From the IMG/VR virus record IMGVR_UViG_3300025168_016169, positions 1 through 36,039 of that record: a DNA stretch of 36,039 nucleotides; one strand, given 5' to 3'. Position numbers and translations under genes: made by a program. Under the pieces are notes generated by a model. The model saw only the letters and a list, made by a program, of their open reading frames with translations. It searched no databases and was not told the DNA's origin. Each line of letters begins with the position of its first letter. Position 1 is the first letter of the stretch. This document shows positions 990 to 11,780 of the stretch, one piece after another. This stretch comes from a virus.

Positions 990-1246
990 TTTTTATATAT
1001 TTTTAATCTTAATTTATTATCTCCTTTTATAACACGATGAAAATGGTGTCTTGGTATAAATATAGGATCATTTAATGAAGTTGGCAATTCATTATCAAGT
1101 TGTATCTTCCAATTTGTTTCTCCAAGGATTTCTAAAGTTCGATCTTCATCATCACGATGCCATAACAATTCTATTGGATCTATATTTTCAGAAAATTCAC
1201 GAATAATATAGGAATCTGTAACTTTTATATCAGTGTAAGGTTTCAA
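986..1246 (-). CDS. Small cupin-like protein (TTG start)
   Basis: An 86-residue protein. Its second half has the proline-histidine pattern of a short cupin/RmlC-type beta-barrel: WHRDDEDR at about 29-36, then PIFIPRHHFHRVIKG at about 61-75. Similar small proteins are common in T4-like marine phages. No ATG exists in the frame, so the start is TTG at 1246, overlapping the upstream stop as TTGA; this points to translational coupling. The histidines could bind a metal, but no catalytic role can be assigned. Confidence 0.68.
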   Translation of the reverse strand: MKPYTDIKVTDSYIIREFSENIDPIELLWHRDDEDRTLEILGETNWKIQLDNELPTSLNDPIFIPRHHFHRVIKGDNKLRLKIYKK

Positions 1247-1677
1247 GACTTCTTTTTATATTGTGCTTTTTTAGTATTTTTTACAAACTGTTTACCTTTT
1301 TTACCTCCTCTAACTTTTTTAGCTACAGTTGATTTTCTTTCAGCTTTAGTTAAAGATTGTGCTTTAGCTTTAGGTAAACAACGAGTTGCAGCTTTACCTT
1401 TTTTCATTGTACCACAAGCTCCTGTTATATTACCTGAGGTATTGATACGTACCCATTTTTCTTTTTTAAACCAATCACGTAAAGATTCTTTAATTACATT
1501 ACGTATTTGTTCTTCTTTTAAACCTTTCCAAATAGATCCTTTTCTACATCTAACTACAGCACCTGATTTATAAGCAGAAGGTTTATCAAATTTACGATCA
1601 GCAATACGTAAACATCTGTCTCTCTTACTCTTTTTTTCAGTAAGAACTTCTTTAATTATTTTTTCTAATCTACCCAT
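1243..1677 (-). CDS. Basic two-module virion-type protein with N-terminal I-K-E tag
   Basis: The 144-residue protein starts at the ATG at 1677, which forms a TAATG overlap with the upstream stop; an ATG two codons earlier is less likely. It has three parts: a tag (MGRLEKIIKEVLTE, residues 1-14); a first module around residues 20-52 with two cysteines (22 and 44); and a second module from about 70 with cysteines 88 and 100 followed by a very basic tail (KKVRGGKKGKQF). The second module resembles a conserved phage domain I remember as DUF6321. An internal VIKESLRDWF (61-70) repeats the tag pattern exactly at the joint. The charge suggests nucleic-acid contact. Function unknown. Confidence 0.75.
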   Translation of the reverse strand: MGRLEKIIKEVLTEKKSKRDRCLRIADRKFDKPSAYKSGAVVRCRKGSIWKGLKEEQIRNVIKESLRDWFKKEKWVRINTSGNITGACGTMKKGKAATRCLPKAKAQSLTKAERKSTVAKKVRGGKKGKQFVKNTKKAQYKKKS

Positions 1678-3323
1678 TACCAAAACCCACTAAAGGATGA
1701 TTTTAAACCTAACAATTTAGCATAGCGAGGTAGTCTACAAGACCAATATCCTGCTTTTGTTCTATCTTTCTTTTGTGCACATTTATGTCTAGCGGCAAAT
1801 GCTCGTCTTGCTTTAGGATTATTAATTTTTGCTTTTAATCCACCAGAACCAAATGAAATTTTTTTTACTTTTTTAGTTTTAGGATCTCTAACATAAACAT
1901 AATATGCTTTAGAACCACCACGTTTTGGTTTTCCTATGGGTGGGTCCTTTTTCTTTTTCTTTTTAGCTTCTTGAAGAGAAAAATTTGATACTGATTTATA
2001 CCACTTTATTAGCTCACCATAAGTCATATCTAATGCTGGGTATTGGGGATTACTTTCAAGTTTAGCCAATTCTTTAGGATATTTTTTTAACATTTTTCTA
2101 ATAGCTTCTAATCTATATAAACCTTCTCCATCTCCATCCCATGTTCTTCTATCTATACCATAACTATAAGGCCCAGTGTATATGTTATCATCATCTTCCC
2201 AATCATCTTCTTCTTCCCAATCATCTTCCCAATCCAAATCTTCTGATTCATTCATAGATTTTCTATTTAAAAACTGTTGGAATCTTCTATTAACTTCTTG
2301 ATCTATAGATTTTTTTGTCCAACCTTTACCTGGAGAATTTTGGGCTATTTTTTCTACTTCTTTTCGAATTTTGTCTAAATCTTCTGATTCATTAACTGAT
2401 CTATCGATTACATACTCTTTATCCAATAAGTCGTCAGAGCTTGTATGCAAATGACGCTGGAGGTTTTCTTGGGCTTGGATATAAAGTTTATTTTGGGCTT
2501 TATTAATTCCTAAAGCCTCTACATGCCATTTATCACCATGTTTCATTTTGACATACTTTTCAGCAGCTGCGTAATCTTCTTTGGTTGGTTTAGTATCAAC
2601 AGCTTGACCAAATATTCTTTGAGCTTCTTTATATTCCCTGTCAATAATACGTTTCCAATCAATTTTTTCAATCCCCCAATCTAAATCTTCTGATTCATTC
2701 ATTAATCCTTTAGAAAACATTATAAAAGGATAATAAGCTCTATCATCATCATAATCTCTTTCATACTCAAAATTAGAAAGATCAGCATTTACTTTAAATC
2801 CTTTACTTTCAATAAAATCAACCATGTCATCAAACTCTTCATAAATATCTCCTTTGATTAATATAGATAATTTTTGATCACCAATTAATGAAGTTCTTAC
2901 ATTAAATTCTTTTTCAAATTCATTTTGTAATGTTTTTGGATCTACATTTTCATTTAACATAGGTAAATCTAAAGGTACTTTTTCACCTTCATACATTCCA
3001 TAATTACCTAAGTCAGTTTCTGATAGAATTTCTTTATCATCTTCATTTACATGAATAATTTCACGTAAATATAAATAACGTGCTTCTTGCCATAAATTAA
3101 GGAAAGATTCGGAACCATAACGAAATGTGTTTTCGGTTAGTGGGAGTTTATTTTGCACATGATATTGCAGATTTTCCGATAATATCATTTTAGGGGCTTT
3201 GCTTTCATTTAATAAGATACCTTCATTACCTACATTATCACAAGTATTGCAACCACAATTGCAATCTTTCTTTTTAGGTTGAGTAGATAATGCTTCTTTT
3301 ATTAAATTTGTTAAACGTGACAT
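1677..3323 (-). CDS. Modular tagged virion polyprotein-like protein with NESEDLD repeats
   Basis: A 548-residue protein built as a chain of short modules. It begins with MSRLTNLIKEAL (1-12), then a cysteine cluster CNCGCNTC (21-28). Joints of the form L/V/M-N-E lie at 38-40, 92-94, 123-125, 208-210, 310-312 and 357-359, and NESEDLD occurs three times (209-215, 311-317, 358-364). A D/E/W-rich stretch occupies about 359-380. The C-terminal domain (about 471-548) is basic and ends in an ARHKC...GYWSCR motif that I recall from other T4-like phages. The next gene starts in a TAATG overlap. I infer a head-packaged precursor that may be cut at the N-E joints; no enzyme activity is recognised. Confidence 0.75.
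   Translation of the reverse strand: MSRLTNLIKEALSTQPKKKDCNCGCNTCDNVGNEGILLNESKAPKMILSENLQYHVQNKLPLTENTFRYGSESFLNLWQEARYLYLREIIHVNEDDKEILSETDLGNYGMYEGEKVPLDLPMLNENVDPKTLQNEFEKEFNVRTSLIGDQKLSILIKGDIYEEFDDMVDFIESKGFKVNADLSNFEYERDYDDDRAYYPFIMFSKGLMNESEDLDWGIEKIDWKRIIDREYKEAQRIFGQAVDTKPTKEDYAAAEKYVKMKHGDKWHVEALGINKAQNKLYIQAQENLQRHLHTSSDDLLDKEYVIDRSVNESEDLDKIRKEVEKIAQNSPGKGWTKKSIDQEVNRRFQQFLNRKSMNESEDLDWEDDWEEEDDWEDDDNIYTGPYSYGIDRRTWDGDGEGLYRLEAIRKMLKKYPKELAKLESNPQYPALDMTYGELIKWYKSVSNFSLQEAKKKKKKDPPIGKPKRGGSKAYYVYVRDPKTKKVKKISFGSGGLKAKINNPKARRAFAARHKCAQKKDRTKAGYWSCRLPRYAKLLGLKSSFSGFW
2232..2699 (-). repeat. Three dispersed NESEDLD-coding repeats
   Basis: The heptapeptide NESEDLD is encoded at 2679-2699, 2373-2393 and 2232-2252 by nearly identical 21-base stretches. 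Each copy follows a hydrophobic residue (M, V, M), giving [M/V]-N-E-S-E-D-L-D, and each sits between modules of different sequence. The repeats look like duplicated linkers rather than repeats within a domain. Confidence 0.85.
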
Positions 3324-6367: not shown

Positions 6368-7051
6368 TTATTCTTCTCCTCCAATGTATTCACCTACAAA
6401 GAATTTTAAGGTGTTTCCTATTTGAGTAGTAAGTTTTTCATTATCCATTGCTTTGGATACTTTTAAAGCTGAAATTAAATGATCCATTAGATCACCTTCA
6501 TCACCTTCCATATCAGCAGCAATATCTTCAATTCCACCTCCAGTTTCAGTTTCTTCTTCTGCTTCAACTTCAACCTCTTCTTCAGGTGCTTCTTCAGGTG
6601 CTTCTTCTTCTTTTTCTTCTTCTTCTTCTTCTTCCTTAGCTTCTTCTAAAGATTCTTCCTCACTTAATTCGTTAATAATCATTTCACGAATTTTTGATTT
6701 AAGGTCTTCTTTTTCATCTTTCATACCATCAAGATAACCTTCTTCTTCAGCATCAGTACGGGCATCTTCTTTTAAAATATAATCACCATGTCTATGTTTT
6801 TCAACAGATGACATTTTTTTAAGAACACCCATTAAATCTTTTTTTTCTGCTCCTAATTTTTTAGCAGCAGCTACTAATGGTTTTAAACCAGCAGCTCCAC
6901 CTTCTTTTTTAAGTACAGATTTAATAGTTTTTTCTAATTTGCTTTTATCAAATTTTTCTTTTTTTTCTTTTGCTTCTTTTAAAAAAGGATTTGAATTTTC
7001 AATGGTTTTATTATCCGTTAGAAATTTCTTTAAATTAAAGTTATCTTTCAT
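6368..7051 (-). CDS. Acidic prohead-core-like protein
   Basis: A 227-residue protein with a basic, helical first half (KSKLEKTIKSVLKKEGG; KPLVAAAKKLGAEKKDLMGVLKK) and a strongly acidic centre (about 125-172, runs of up to seven E). A C-terminal amphipathic domain follows (about 185-227, MDHLISALKVSKAMDNEKL...). It has several I/L-x-E sites, for example LKE at 24-26 and LSE at 128-130. T4 scaffold and core proteins have this low-complexity acidic, helical character and are cut by the prohead protease. I infer a core or internal head protein; there is no direct sequence match. A promoter-like element precedes it at 7066. Confidence 0.6.
   Translation of the reverse strand: MKDNFNLKKFLTDNKTIENSNPFLKEAKEKKEKFDKSKLEKTIKSVLKKEGGAAGLKPLVAAAKKLGAEKKDLMGVLKKMSSVEKHRHGDYILKEDARTDAEEEGYLDGMKDEKEDLKSKIREMIINELSEEESLEEAKEEEEEEEKEEEAPEEAPEEEVEVEAEEETETGGGIEDIAADMEGDEGDLMDHLISALKVSKAMDNEKLTTQIGNTLKFFVGEYIGGEE
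6550..6660 (-). repeat. Glu-coding GAA/GAG low-complexity tract
   Basis: A purine-rich microsatellite-like run on the coding strand (CTT repeats on the plus strand) encodes the poly-Glu centre of the acidic protein. Such tracts vary in length by slippage. The repeat keeps frame with codons throughout. Confidence 0.85.
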
Positions 7052-7107: not shown

Positions 7108-7680
7108 TTATTTTTTTAAATTTTTAAAGTATTCTATACCTTCTTCCATTGCTGCTTTAGCACGTTTTTTATCAATTCCACCTACCCATTTTTGGATATC
7201 ACCAGCTTCAGTAACATAATTATTATTACTTTCAGAAAGCATATCTTTCATAAAGTTTTTATATTCTTCAATATTAATATCTATTTCTTTATTAAATGTA
7301 GTTTTAATATATTCTTCCCATTTACCTTCAGTTTTTAATTTAGTTTCAGTAACAGCTCTACAATTAACACATTCTCCATAAGCTTTATAATAATAAGGAT
7401 CTAACTGCCCATCCATGTTTTCTTTACATTTAGGACAAAATATAGGAACAGCTACTTTTTTAAATTTATCTAATTTAGTAACATTTTCTTTTATACCATC
7501 ACGTATAGTCCATTTTTTTCCATTTTCTTCCCAAATATCACCTTCTTTATAGGAAATTGATTCTTCACCATTATAACCTATACCAGTAGTTATTTTTTTA
7601 TCTGTTTTACCTTTTATAAGGTTTCGAAGACGTTCTACATCTCGTTTTTGAAATTGTTTTTTTAAAACTGAATCTGACAT
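7108..7680 (-). CDS. Zinc-ribbon protein conserved in T4-like phages
   Basis: A 190-residue protein. It starts with a basic helix (LKKQFQKRDVERLRNLIKG), then a small beta region (EGDIWEENGKKWTIRDGIK), then a zinc ribbon with CPKC at about 82-85 and CVNC at about 98-101. The C-terminus reads VTEAGDIQKWVGGIDKKRA. The whole arrangement matches a family I remember from many T4-like environmental phages, with no assigned function. The I/L-x-E joint motif is absent from its first residues. The start is in a TAATG overlap with the HAD gene. It may bind nucleic acid through the ribbon. Confidence 0.72.
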   Translation of the reverse strand: MSDSVLKKQFQKRDVERLRNLIKGKTDKKITTGIGYNGEESISYKEGDIWEENGKKWTIRDGIKENVTKLDKFKKVAVPIFCPKCKENMDGQLDPYYYKAYGECVNCRAVTETKLKTEGKWEEYIKTTFNKEIDINIEEYKNFMKDMLSESNNNYVTEAGDIQKWVGGIDKKRAKAAMEEGIEYFKNLKK

Positions 7681-8225
7681 TATAATCCTAATTGTTTTAG
7701 TTGTTTAATTGAATCATCTGCTGATATGTATAAAATACCTGTTCCACCATTAGCATTCCAAGTGTCAATTGTACTTGCTTTATCGTCTATAAGTATATCT
7801 GTTTTAGTAAGAGACTGTTTTACTTGGTGTTTTTGTTTTGCAGGTTTAAAATTTACTTTTGGTGTATCAGGAAATAAATCAGAATGGATTTTACGTAACC
7901 ATATCATTTTTCCTAATCTAGATTGTTTTTTAATAGAAGGAGCAGTTAACATTTCATAGTCGTATTGTGAAACATAATCTATTAACTTTTTAGCTCCAGA
8001 CATTACAGGTATACCTGCCCAAAATTTTACTTTATTTTCTTCATCTATAAAGTCCCAAAATTTATTCATACCATATTTATCTCTATATTCATCTGGGGTT
8101 AGACCTGATAGGTCAATAAATCTTTGATCAAAATCAGCTATTACACCATCCATATCTAAATAGATAGTATACGCAGATACATCGTTTTCTTTAATTAGTT
8201 TATATAAATCAAATAAATTTGCCAT
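7680..8225 (-). CDS. HAD-family 5'-nucleotidase-like phosphatase with L-I-K-E tag
   Basis: A 181-residue protein from the ATG at 8225, two bases after the upstream stop; a longer frame from 8270 would run into the upstream gene. It starts with MANLFDLYKLIKENDV, an amphipathic tag ending L-I-K-E (10-13). HAD motif I follows: IYLDMDGVIADF with nucleophile D24 and acid D26. Motif II/III candidates are LTAPS and the late LIDDKASTIDTW. The size and sequence resemble 5'(3')-deoxyribonucleotidases. It should dephosphorylate a nucleotide or another small phosphate. The tag raises the possibility that it is carried in the head. Fold certain, substrate inferred. Confidence 0.78.
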   Translation of the reverse strand: MANLFDLYKLIKENDVSAYTIYLDMDGVIADFDQRFIDLSGLTPDEYRDKYGMNKFWDFIDEENKVKFWAGIPVMSGAKKLIDYVSQYDYEMLTAPSIKKQSRLGKMIWLRKIHSDLFPDTPKVNFKPAKQKHQVKQSLTKTDILIDDKASTIDTWNANGGTGILYISADDSIKQLKQLGL

Positions 8226-8227
8226 AA

Positions 8228-11035
8228 TTAAAATTGAGGTAAACTTAATGCCTTTCTTCTGCTTCTCCACAGATCTAGAATTTTTTCTTTTTCTTCAGGG
8301 GTGATTTCTTGGGCATCTAAATAAGTATTTATTACATCTCCAAAAGATCTTTTTTCTTTTTTAGCTCTAAAATACATTCCTTGTAAATTAGCATCTACTT
8401 CTTTTGGTAATTGAAAATATTCAGCTTGAGGTATAAGTTTAGCTTTAACTAAAGCTCTTATAAGAGAATCATCTTCAAATTTTTCTTTTTTTGTTTTTGA
8501 ATCTCCTGATTGTGTAATATGTTCAATTTCATGTCTTACAACATCTTTAAGATTCATAGATATTTCTTCCCAAAATTCAGGTAACATTTTAGGATCAATT
8601 TCAAAAGTTACTTCTAAATATCCTGGGAGTTTTTCTTTGGTTTTAGGATTAATTCGAGCTTCATCAGAACCACCATCTACTTTAAGTTGTTTTGATCCAG
8701 GTGTGAATTGTATTTGAGCTTTTACATCAATACCTCTTGGAGGGAAATCATAAGTATCTTCATATGTTGATAATTTATCTCCTTCTTCATAATCTTCTTT
8801 CCAATTTGAAAATATATCTCTTGAAATTTGATTTGATAAAGTATCATAACGGCCTTCTTTTAATTGAGGAGTATTATCATGATTACATTTATGACACATA
8901 TATAAATCATCTCCACCATCTTTTATTTTCCATTCCCATCCACAATTATCACATTTAATTTTATCTCCAATAATTATTTCTTCTAAACTAGCTAATTCTC
9001 TAGCATATTGGTTTAAACCAAAAGGATCTTTACCTAAATTTTTATTAAAACCGTGTTTATGTTTATATGGTTTTTCTTTTTCATTTAAACTAGTAACTTC
9101 TTCTCCATCAATACCATCTGTATAATTTCTAAAAAGCATATTACCTTTTGTGTATGCTTCTCTTTCTATATCATTTAAATAATCATCTTCCATTGTATTA
9201 GTAGTACTAATATCTTTTAATCTACCTTCTAAATTTTGAATATGATGAATCATTTCATGAGCATATGATCTTACTACATCTTTAGGATGTCTACCTTTAG
9301 TATATAATACTATTATCATATTATTAGGATCATAATATGCAGTTTTACCTAAAAAATCTTTAGCATTTTCTTCATCATTATGTTTAAATATTATTTTAGG
9401 TAAGGGTTTAATATTCATACCCTTTTTTAACATATGTTTAGTTAAATCTTTAACTTGTTGTTTATAATCTATATAATTAGAATATGTAGTATTTTCATTT
9501 AAAGGTTTGTATGCTGAACCAAAAGGAGATGATTTACCTTTATGTTTAGCTTGTGCTTTTGGATCAATATTTTCTTTTTCTAGTTCAGGGTGGAATTTCA
9601 TAGAAACTTCTTTAGCATCAGGTTTAATTGATTCACCATCTACTAATACTTCAACGGGATATATTTTAGCATCATTCCCATACCAATAATTCATTTTATA
9701 TCCACCTTCTTTAGTTAACTCAACAATTAATCCTCTATCATAATCTTCACTTTCAGCTTGTAAATATATTTTTTTACCCCTTGGTAAAACTAAAGATGTC
9801 TTTTCTAAAATATCTTCATTTACTTTTTGTTTTTTCATTCTTTCTGTTTTCTTCTTAGAGGCTTCTTTACGTTTTTTAATATATTCAAAAGCAGAACGTA
9901 ACTTAGCTTTCTTTTGAGGGTCTTTAGTTCTACTTAAAGCAGCTCTTACTCTTTGATGTATTAAATTAATAATTTGAGATTGACGAGCATGAGATTTAGA
10001 TTTAAATGAAGTTTTATTTAAAGTATTTATTATATCTTGTCTTGTAGAAAACTTAACTTTAACAGTGTCTGATGGGTCTTCATCTGTGTATAAACGTCTT
10101 TTTGATCCTTTGGGTTTTTTTCCTGTGCCTTTTTTAGGGTCAGCTTCATTTATTATTTCATATAAAAATGAAGTAGGAATTAATGATGATTTTAATGCAG
10201 GTATTCTAGATAAAAGTAAATAAATAAACCCACCTGGTAAGATAGAAGCTGCTGTAAATCCAGCTAATTTTAAAGTATTTTTTAATTGATTGCCAATTTC
10301 AATTTTTTCACTTTTAGTTAAAGTTTCACCAGTTCTTACAGCATGGGCTAATTTCCCAAATGCCTTTTGTATATCTTTACTTTGAGTTTTTAATTTTTCA
10401 ATAAAATTATCAAATTTACCTTTTAAATCTTTAAAATAGTCTTCTATTTTTCCTTCATCTAATGGTTGAGATGATAAAATGTTCCAAATTTCATCTTGAT
10501 TAACATTATTAGGCAGAAAACTATTAAAAGCTTCTTTATTATTATTTATTAATGCTTTACGAGCATTAGTTCCACTCATACCTCCGTCAGGAGTAATAAT
10601 AGTTTTTAAATTAAGATTAGGATACTTATTTATAGATATAGATCTTGATGATATATCTTGTAAATCATCTTCTCTACCTTCTCTAGATCCTATAATCCAA
10701 TATAAAGAATCTTCAGGATTATCTTTAGCATATCTATAAATATCTCCAATTGGAGAAACAGATTTTTCTATTCTAACTGGTTTGTCAAGTAATTGTTTAT
10801 AATATTCATCCCAAATTTTAAATGATTGATCTTGAGTAATACCATCTCTTACTTTACTACCAACAAAAATTATAATATTATCTATTTCAGGGTTGTTTTT
10901 TATAGCTTTTTGAAGAACTTCTAAATGTCCTGCTGTTGGTGGTTTAAAACCACCTCCAAATAAAGCAGTAACTTCTTTACCTCCTATACTTTCGGGTAAA
11001 AAATCTTTAATAAGTGATTTAGTTAAGGAATCCAT
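8228..11035 (-). CDS. Multidomain polyprotein-like protein: nucleotidyltransferase, LETM1-like segment, two HExxH metalloprotease modules
   Basis: A 935-residue protein with at least six parts. (1) Tag MDSLTKSLIKDFL (1-13). (2) Cytidylyltransferase/NMNAT-type nucleotidyltransferase: GGGFKPPTAGH (27-37) and MSGTNAR (153-159). (3) LETM1-like hydrophobic segment, about 195-292 (AASILPGGFIYLLL). (4) Very basic helical module, 300-402. (5) Beta region, 412-510. (6) Metalloprotease with HEMIH (593-597). (7) Zinc ribbon C695/C698/C714/C717. (8) Second HExxH, HEIEH (835-839). Joints carry LDE 192-194, INE 295-297, VNE 405-407, LNE 512-514, LNE 650-652 and LKE 725-727. Overlaps the kinase gene by 17 bases. 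The domains are visible; processing is inferred. Confidence 0.78.
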   Translation of the reverse strand: MDSLTKSLIKDFLPESIGGKEVTALFGGGFKPPTAGHLEVLQKAIKNNPEIDNIIIFVGSKVRDGITQDQSFKIWDEYYKQLLDKPVRIEKSVSPIGDIYRYAKDNPEDSLYWIIGSREGREDDLQDISSRSISINKYPNLNLKTIITPDGGMSGTNARKALINNNKEAFNSFLPNNVNQDEIWNILSSQPLDEGKIEDYFKDLKGKFDNFIEKLKTQSKDIQKAFGKLAHAVRTGETLTKSEKIEIGNQLKNTLKLAGFTAASILPGGFIYLLLSRIPALKSSLIPTSFLYEIINEADPKKGTGKKPKGSKRRLYTDEDPSDTVKVKFSTRQDIINTLNKTSFKSKSHARQSQIINLIHQRVRAALSRTKDPQKKAKLRSAFEYIKKRKEASKKKTERMKKQKVNEDILEKTSLVLPRGKKIYLQAESEDYDRGLIVELTKEGGYKMNYWYGNDAKIYPVEVLVDGESIKPDAKEVSMKFHPELEKENIDPKAQAKHKGKSSPFGSAYKPLNENTTYSNYIDYKQQVKDLTKHMLKKGMNIKPLPKIIFKHNDEENAKDFLGKTAYYDPNNMIIVLYTKGRHPKDVVRSYAHEMIHHIQNLEGRLKDISTTNTMEDDYLNDIEREAYTKGNMLFRNYTDGIDGEEVTSLNEKEKPYKHKHGFNKNLGKDPFGLNQYARELASLEEIIIGDKIKCDNCGWEWKIKDGGDDLYMCHKCNHDNTPQLKEGRYDTLSNQISRDIFSNWKEDYEEGDKLSTYEDTYDFPPRGIDVKAQIQFTPGSKQLKVDGGSDEARINPKTKEKLPGYLEVTFEIDPKMLPEFWEEISMNLKDVVRHEIEHITQSGDSKTKKEKFEDDSLIRALVKAKLIPQAEYFQLPKEVDANLQGMYFRAKKEKRSFGDVINTYLDAQEITPEEKEKILDLWRSRRKALSLPQF

Positions 11036-11780
11036 CTATTTTACTCTTGATTTGGTTTTGAGGGGTAAATTCTGGTAGGGATGAAAGTAGTTGTTTTATA
11101 GAATTTTCTAATTCTTTTTGTTCTTTAGCTTTTTGCAATTTTTCTTCATCACTATATTCTCTAGCTGCCGTTACTTGGTCAAAATATTTTTTTATTTCTT
11201 GTTCATTGTAAGTTTTATCAGCACCTTCGGGATCATTATTTACTAATATAAAATTATTTCCAAACATATTATTAAAAACATCAACATTTTTATTTACTTT
11301 TTCCCAAGTACGAACTATAATTGAAGGTCGAAGTGATCTATCTCCTGCTTCTCCTCTAGATCTATTACGTTCTAAAGATACAAGTGGTGAAACATATATC
11401 ATTACCATCATTGTATTATACCCTAAATCTTCTAATTGTGTTTTCTTTTTTAATATAGGATTTGATGCACCACCAGTACCATCGATTATAATACTTTCTC
11501 CTTCTTTTTGAGCAGATTGAAGTTTAGCTGTTGTTTCTTTACGAGCTCTACTCATTAATTTAGATGATTGAGATAATTCATCTGAAGTAAAGGTTGATTG
11601 GGGTTTATCTAATCCTGCCTGTTTAAGTAACTCTTCATATGTATCATCTACATTAATTACTTTTAAGTTAGGAATATTATTTTTAATAAAGGTTGATTTA
11701 CCACTTCCTGCGGGGCCTGCTAAAAAGATAGCTTTAGGACCATTTTGGATTTCTTTTAATAATTTTATTAGGCTTATCAT
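11019..11780 (-). CDS. P-loop kinase, polynucleotide-kinase/zeta-toxin-like, with L-L-K-E tag
   Basis: A 253-residue protein. After the tag MISLIKLLKEIQ (1-12) comes a Walker A GPAGSGKST (22-30), then VINVDDTYEE, a Walker B-like strand SIIIDGTGG at about 96-104, and an arginine-rich lid (ERNRSRGEAGDRSLRPS, about 135-151). This is the AAA_33 / polynucleotide kinase / zeta-toxin pattern, so it should transfer ATP phosphate to a nucleic acid end or small molecule. The C-terminal 50 residues are helical and charged. Similar tagged kinases occur in T4-like environmental phages. It lies just upstream of the nucleotidyltransferase-protease gene. The substrate cannot be read from the sequence. Confidence 0.78.
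   Translation of the reverse strand: MISLIKLLKEIQNGPKAIFLAGPAGSGKSTFIKNNIPNLKVINVDDTYEELLKQAGLDKPQSTFTSDELSQSSKLMSRARKETTAKLQSAQKEGESIIIDGTGGASNPILKKKTQLEDLGYNTMMVMIYVSPLVSLERNRSRGEAGDRSLRPSIIVRTWEKVNKNVDVFNNMFGNNFILVNNDPEGADKTYNEQEIKKYFDQVTAAREYSDEEKLQKAKEQKELENSIKQLLSSLPEFTPQNQIKSKIDGFLN

Follow-up and report, generated by a model that had tools for sequence, protein, structure and literature searches.

The question raised by this locus is why a single phage protein repeats the same seven residues, NESEDLD, between its parts. The DNA analysed (the window) is the whole of a 36,039-base virus record, IMGVR_UViG_3300025168_016169. The window bears tail and baseplate genes, and relatives with the same gene order carry gp21, gp22, and gp23; judged by this gene content, its source is an aquatic phage related to T4. 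The repeats lie in a 548-aa protein (Table 1). A sequence-only reading had placed them at residues 209-215, 311-317, and 358-364, each after M or V, and had ascribed them to linker duplication or to module insertion by recombination between linkers. The three copies were found exactly there, and the preceding residues were M, V, and M.

Table 1. Positions of the features discussed. A slash marks a proposed cut; pI and pLDDT are given where they were obtained.
Feature	Position	Strand	Remarks
548-aa protein ORF	1677-3323	(-)	
N-terminal tag (aa 1-10) MSRLTNLIKE/, a putative capsid-targeting signal with I-K-E at its end	3294..3323	(-)	LIKE- or IIKE-type N-termini on unrelated ORFs
Conserved N domain (aa 41-125), end ...VPLDLPMLNE/	2949..3203	(-)	Kept in relatives; pLDDT ~80-90
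Module 1 (aa 126-210)	2694..2948	(-)	Also a stand-alone ORF elsewhere
Linker 1 NESEDLD (aa 209-215), proposed cut after MNE	2679..2699	(-)	pLDDT <50
Module 2 (aa 211-312), between MNE/ and VNE/	2388..2693	(-)	
Linker 2 NESEDLD (aa 311-317), proposed cut after VNE	2373..2393	(-)	Left breakpoint of the L004 cassette
Module 3 (aa 313-359), helical hairpin, pI 9.6	2247..2387	(-)	L004 cassette; pLDDT ~90-95
Linker 3 NESEDLD (aa 358-364), proposed cut after MNE	2232..2252	(-)	L002 junction here
Module 4 (aa 360-452), acidic in its N-terminal part, last residues SLQE/	1968..2246	(-)	Behind the N domain in L002, behind a KOW-like piece in L003
Conserved basic C domain (aa 453-548), pI 10.8	1680..1967	(-)	phrog_7595, E 1.9e-9; sole PHROGs match in the protein
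227-aa acidic protein	6368..7051	(-)	Module also inside the L006 polyprotein
935-aa protein, putative second polyprotein of the same type	8228..11035	(-)	[LIVM]NE count, site-to-site indels, permuted modules

The frequency of the residues around the repeats was compared with that in shuffled sequences. The tripeptide [LIVM]NE occurred six times in the 548-aa protein and four times in the 935-aa protein, as had been counted by hand, compared with 0.6 (p=0.001) and 0.9 (p=0.005) in the shuffles, respectively. The supposed enrichment thus held for both proteins, and most other proteins of the window were at expectation. The widened motif [LIVM]-x-E-[ASGN] reached 10 in the 548-aa protein vs. 2.2 in the shuffles (p=0.001). 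Since the motif is short, [LIVM]-x-E by itself showed no significant enrichment here (14 vs. 9.9, p=0.09). The proteome control was a long relative of 156 kb (G001), with 4 head, 29 tagged, and 178 other proteins. In this control, [LIVM]NE was approximately 4-fold enriched in the head proteins (9 vs. 2.3) and in the tagged proteins (25 vs. 6.6), but just 1.5-fold in the other 178 (66 vs. 45). The tagged class was set by an N-terminal motif, and past residue 25 the count was still 15 vs. 5.4.

The viral-contig scan gave 218 relatives, of which 80 were kept. They share the N domain (approximately aa 1-125) and the basic C domain (approximately aa 453-548), and the variable middle region changes between them by whole modules. 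With M1 to M4 for the modules, the window protein reads N-LNE/M1-MNE/M2-VNE/M3-MNE/M4-LQE/C. In L002, module 4 directly follows the N domain (N-VNE/M4-LSE/C). L003 reads N-VNE/KOW-like-LAE/M4-LQE/C, as does the G001 gene, and L004 reads N-VNE/KOW-like-LAE/M3-MDE/SEDLDE/C, where the name "KOW-like" comes from inspecting the sequence and not from a database hit. Short members such as L076, L077, Melnitz, and immuto have one or two sites between N and C and are without the inserted module; the joint in immuto reads VDE/ELDE/GEYRGK, and those in Melnitz read LIE/S and MME/SEYQG. Module order and content were thus not fixed among the relatives. In the long relative, a 608-aa ORF adjoining gp21 (L102, 12296-14122; also L087 and L088) has five [LIVM]NE and differs by modules between relatives, with a KOW-like piece present or absent.

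The exchange could be followed at the DNA level. Module 3 of the window and of L004 was 98.1% identical across 160 bp, from the linker GAATCAGAAGATTTAGA to the next linker, whereas the gene outside this cassette was 88-93% identical, its immediate flanks were unrelated, and the surrounding loci were approximately 77-94% identical. L003 and L004 were identical through the linker GAATCAGAAGATTT and carried different modules beyond it. The joints in L003, L004, and L002 were LAE/SEDLD, MDE/SEDLD, or VNE/SEDLD, in which P2 varies and E is constant. The data support that modules are gained, lost, and swapped by recombination at the linkers. Protein BLAST match ends near the sites were also counted (55 vs. 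42 of 128), a weak enrichment. The match ends are fuzzy, and enrichment was seen for a control motif, [LIVM].[ST], too; this breakpoint test was superseded by two fixed-boundary tests and by the DNA junctions.

Of the two origins first proposed for the linkers, recombination holds, given the module 3 cassette, the divergence of L003 and L004, and the indels and varied order of the 935-aa protein described below. Duplication within the gene fared otherwise. The 21-nt DNA copies are nearly identical, as had been noted, the second and the third each being one base off the first. However, given the codon usage of the genome, all seven codons would agree in approximately 6% of independent pairs. 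The near-identity alone is therefore weak evidence of duplication and was rejected as a stand-alone proof; the strong evidence comes from the comparison between genomes. Moreover, modules 3 and 4 bring the SEDLD prefix with them when they move between phages, so three duplications within one gene are unnecessary.

The joints were then compared with the sites of the T4 prohead protease gp21, which cuts after E in L/I-X-E (PMC9026906). In 42/42 relatives, [LIVM]-x-E was found just before the C domain, with L or I at P3 in 39/42, A following in 28/42, and a free P2 (P, N, D, E, L, Q, and others). This pre-C-domain site was present in all 24 non-redundant upstream sequences, compared with 11.9 in the shuffles. 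At the end of the N domain, [LIVM]-x-E lay <=12 aa after VPLD.P in 23 of the 24 non-redundant relatives (9.7 expected). gp21 was not detected in the 36-kb window fragment; since relatives with the same gene order carry both gp21 and gp23, the window phage presumably has them as well. These two genes (PF03420 and PF07068, respectively) were present in 8 of 12 related contigs bearing the polyprotein gene, and also in three cultured phages bearing a gene of this family.

In the alignments, the capsid site FLTE/A of T4 gp23 corresponded to QLVTE/A or QLVVE/[SAT] of the relatives, and the C-terminal ITE/S of T4 gp21 corresponded to LNE/S, MNE/S, LAE/S, LSE/G, and LNE/G. In Flavobacterium phage vB_FspM_immuto, the gp23 site is QIVSE/A and the gp21 self-site is LNE/G. 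Therefore, the polyprotein joints LMNE/S and LLNE/S are nearly the same as the putative self-cleavage site of the protease. The L/I-x-E motif was found at the joints, the NESEDLD ones having a relaxed form of it with M or V, not L or I, at P3; L083 and L084 likewise have M there in their gp21 self-site (MNE/S). Since the joints match the recognition site of a T4-type prohead protease, they are probably cut, with the linker as the processing signal, and the linkers are probable cut sites of the phage's own head-assembly protease. This match, which the sequence-only reading had missed, would probably explain why the linkers look as they do.

Searches of Pfam, NCBIfam, and PDB sequences found no domain in the 548-aa protein, and the only PHROGs match is that of the C domain. 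Modules 1, 2, and 4 are acidic (pI 4.2-5.6), in contrast to the basic module 3 and C domain. An AlphaFold model from 25 sequences had a mean pLDDT of 66 and a pTM of 0.29. The N domain, module 3, module 4, and the C domain were predicted as separate folded pieces (pLDDT ~70-95), the confidence was low at 204-220, 360-382, and 449-457, and no folded domain was modelled across the joints. Separable modules are consistent with this model, itself weak. A fold search with the model gave nothing significant. When module 2 alone was used for the viral-contig scan, no locus and no relative of it was found; module 1 alone gave one locus, which was already known.

Several ORFs of the window have N-termini like MSRLTNLIKE, of the LIKE, IIKE, LLKE, and LPE types, and MKHSQLKQLIKEEI is a further such tag. 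The N-terminus of T4 IPII and IPIII is MKTYQEFIAE/A. In the long relative, an array at 97.7-102.5 kb (L107, 97666-102496) contains approximately ten small ORFs with unrelated bodies behind shared tags, MKHSQLKQLIKEEIRSxLNE or MxNFNLKKYLAENKLLNE, many of which end in LNE; these ORFs are probably head cargo genes. A shared N-terminal tag ending at a gp21-type site is thus found on otherwise unrelated proteins, and its putative role is targeting. Module 1 was found as a free ORF behind its own tag, MKPSELKQLIKEEIVSILSE/, in L007, and as a free ORF also in L063, L070, L073, and L077. The 227-aa protein was 49% identical over 51 aa to a module of the L006 polyprotein (E 1.7e-12). Adjoining the polyprotein gene, a DUF5872 Lys-rich protein is encoded at 1243-1683 (-) and has an IIKE/VLTE/ tag. 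An NT5C-like nucleotidase at 7680-8270 (-) and a P-loop kinase-like gene at 11019-11780 (-) have the tag-like N-termini KLIKE/N and LLKE/I, respectively, which suggests that their products may be packaged enzymes.

The 935-aa protein appears to be built in the same way. It has a weak nucleotidyltransferase-like N-terminal domain (a related gene is annotated NMN adenylyltransferase), the metalloprotease-like stretches HEMIHH and HEIEH, and a zinc-ribbon-like insert. Compared with its 855-aa relative in G001, it differs by three large indels of 103, 41, and 66 aa, each running from x-x-E to x-x-E. The borders are LDE/G...INE/A, LEE/...LKE/G (zinc-ribbon-like), and TNE...NLNE/D, with T in TNE where L, I, V, or M is expected. 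The module order of this protein is different in L068 and L072. In Methylophilales phage Melnitz (L101 13519-15471), a single 650-aa protein combines a member of the polyprotein family with a nucleotidyltransferase-like domain; in Pelagibacter phage HTVC008M (L116 1019-3210), the corresponding genes are separate and neighboring.

We consider, with a probability of roughly 0.8, that the 548-aa chain is an internal-head polyprotein that gp21 splits into several modules and whose diversity stems from cassettes being exchanged where it is cut. This reading starts from the motif enrichment, the module exchange at the sites in the DNA, and the agreement with the capsid and gp21 self-sites of the relatives, and from it we infer how the protein would be cut, packaged, and ejected and what its modules may do. 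The N-terminal tag would carry the precursor into the prohead, and the gp21-type (S77) prohead protease would cut it after E at [LIVM]-x-E, here mostly [LIVM]-N-E. The cutting would free, each as a protein of its own inside the head, the tag, the N domain, approximately four different modules, and the strongly basic C domain. These pieces would stay in the head, and some would probably be ejected with the DNA into the host. By analogy with T4 Alt and IPI, the modules may serve early take-over or counter-defence. Each module is a self-contained unit, and the cut sites at its two ends have a short stretch of DNA in common, so recombination there would let phages gain, lose, and exchange modules in frame.

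The linkers could also serve recombination alone, in a multidomain chain that stays uncut and in which a shared DNA word aids in-frame exchange, the likeness to protease sites being coincidental. Such linkers would account for breakpoints that fall in linker DNA and for the SEDLD part, which a protease site would not need, and disordered linkers are normal between domains. However, distant relatives keep [LIVM]-x-E with a free P2 at the joints and not the DNA word. This motif also stands at the end of the N-terminal tags and of the capsid propeptide and at the gp21 self-cleavage site, and it is mainly in head and tagged proteins that the enrichment is seen. We thus regard a purely recombinational role as improbable. 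Still less credible, to the point that we hardly consider it, is a functionless product of chance clustering and recent tandem linker duplication. One gene does hold three near-identical 21-nt copies, but the same linker borders different modules in other phages, which is cassette exchange and contradicts such an origin, and the motif enrichment is far above the shuffles.

If the protein is cut, it could be a scaffold or core protein, whose gp21 fragments are mostly degraded and expelled like those of gp22, gp67, and gp68, and whose modules are prohead-shaping filler. The sites lie between the folded modules of the predicted structure, not inside them, and module 1 exists as a separate tagged gene too. 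Furthermore, the 935-aa sister polyprotein has enzyme-like domains, and tag-like N-termini are found on the nucleotidase and the kinase-like gene of the same cluster. These points make a core protein unlikely, even though several modules are acidic, the gp22 of relatives is site-rich as well (15 vs. 6.4), and cutting of the T4 core proteins yields many pieces that are mostly removed (PMC9026906). The internal-head polyprotein remains the reading that we prefer.

T4-type internal proteins are already known, and those of T4 itself are basic, whereas modules 1, 2, and 4 here are acidic. T4 IPI, IPII, IPIII, and Alt (PMC9026906, PMC3012670) likewise have a short N-terminal tag ending in [LI]-x-E and variable bodies behind a conserved tag, and they are packaged with the DNA, as the modules here would be. 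Alt is cut at both ends, at ITE-6 and LTE-619 (PMC5694885). T4 obtains one mature protein per gene, whereas the modules here are chained with cut sites and move between chains. The T4 core proteins gp22, gp67, and gp68 are cut by gp21 into multiple fragments, as is proposed here, and the 227-aa and gp22-like proteins are similarly acidic; however, the fragments of the T4 core proteins are mostly expelled, and the literature covered describes no module exchange at their cut sites. The ejection proteins of phiKZ and SPN3US, processed by S80 prohead proteases, are packaged in the head and cut after E at a short motif, with several sites per propeptide (PMC5694885, PMC10052503). Nevertheless, their multiple cuts remove propeptides, the motif is S/A-x-E or A-x-E, and the excerpts consulted contain no multi-module polyprotein. 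Polyvalent proteins (PMC5512222) also combine many unrelated domains in one packaged chain, with modular evolution and a proposed proteolytic release, but their release is attributed to embedded peptidase domains, while here the head-assembly protease would act at a short repeated site. Known polyvalent or conflict-related domains were not found in the 548-aa chain, in which Pfam and NCBIfam searches detected no domain. A search of open-access literature returned no phage polyprotein of the internal head whose cassettes are delimited by cleavage sites, which does not prove that none exists.

More broadly, a widely distributed set of aquatic phages related to T4 may carry injected effectors as protease-cut polyproteins in which the codons of the cut sites double as recombination sites; we give this extension about an even chance. 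If true, the head cargo of these phages would be made of combinatorial cassettes, and any module bounded by [LIVM]-x-E could be added in frame and would be automatically packaged and released. Many uncharacterised hypervariable proteins of T4-related aquatic phages would then be explained as head cargo, and the tag together with the [LIVM]-x-E borders would provide a simple rule by which candidate injected effectors, with the borders of their domains, could be listed. It would be a bacteriophage polyprotein strategy in which the site of the maturation protease is the border of the evolutionary unit.
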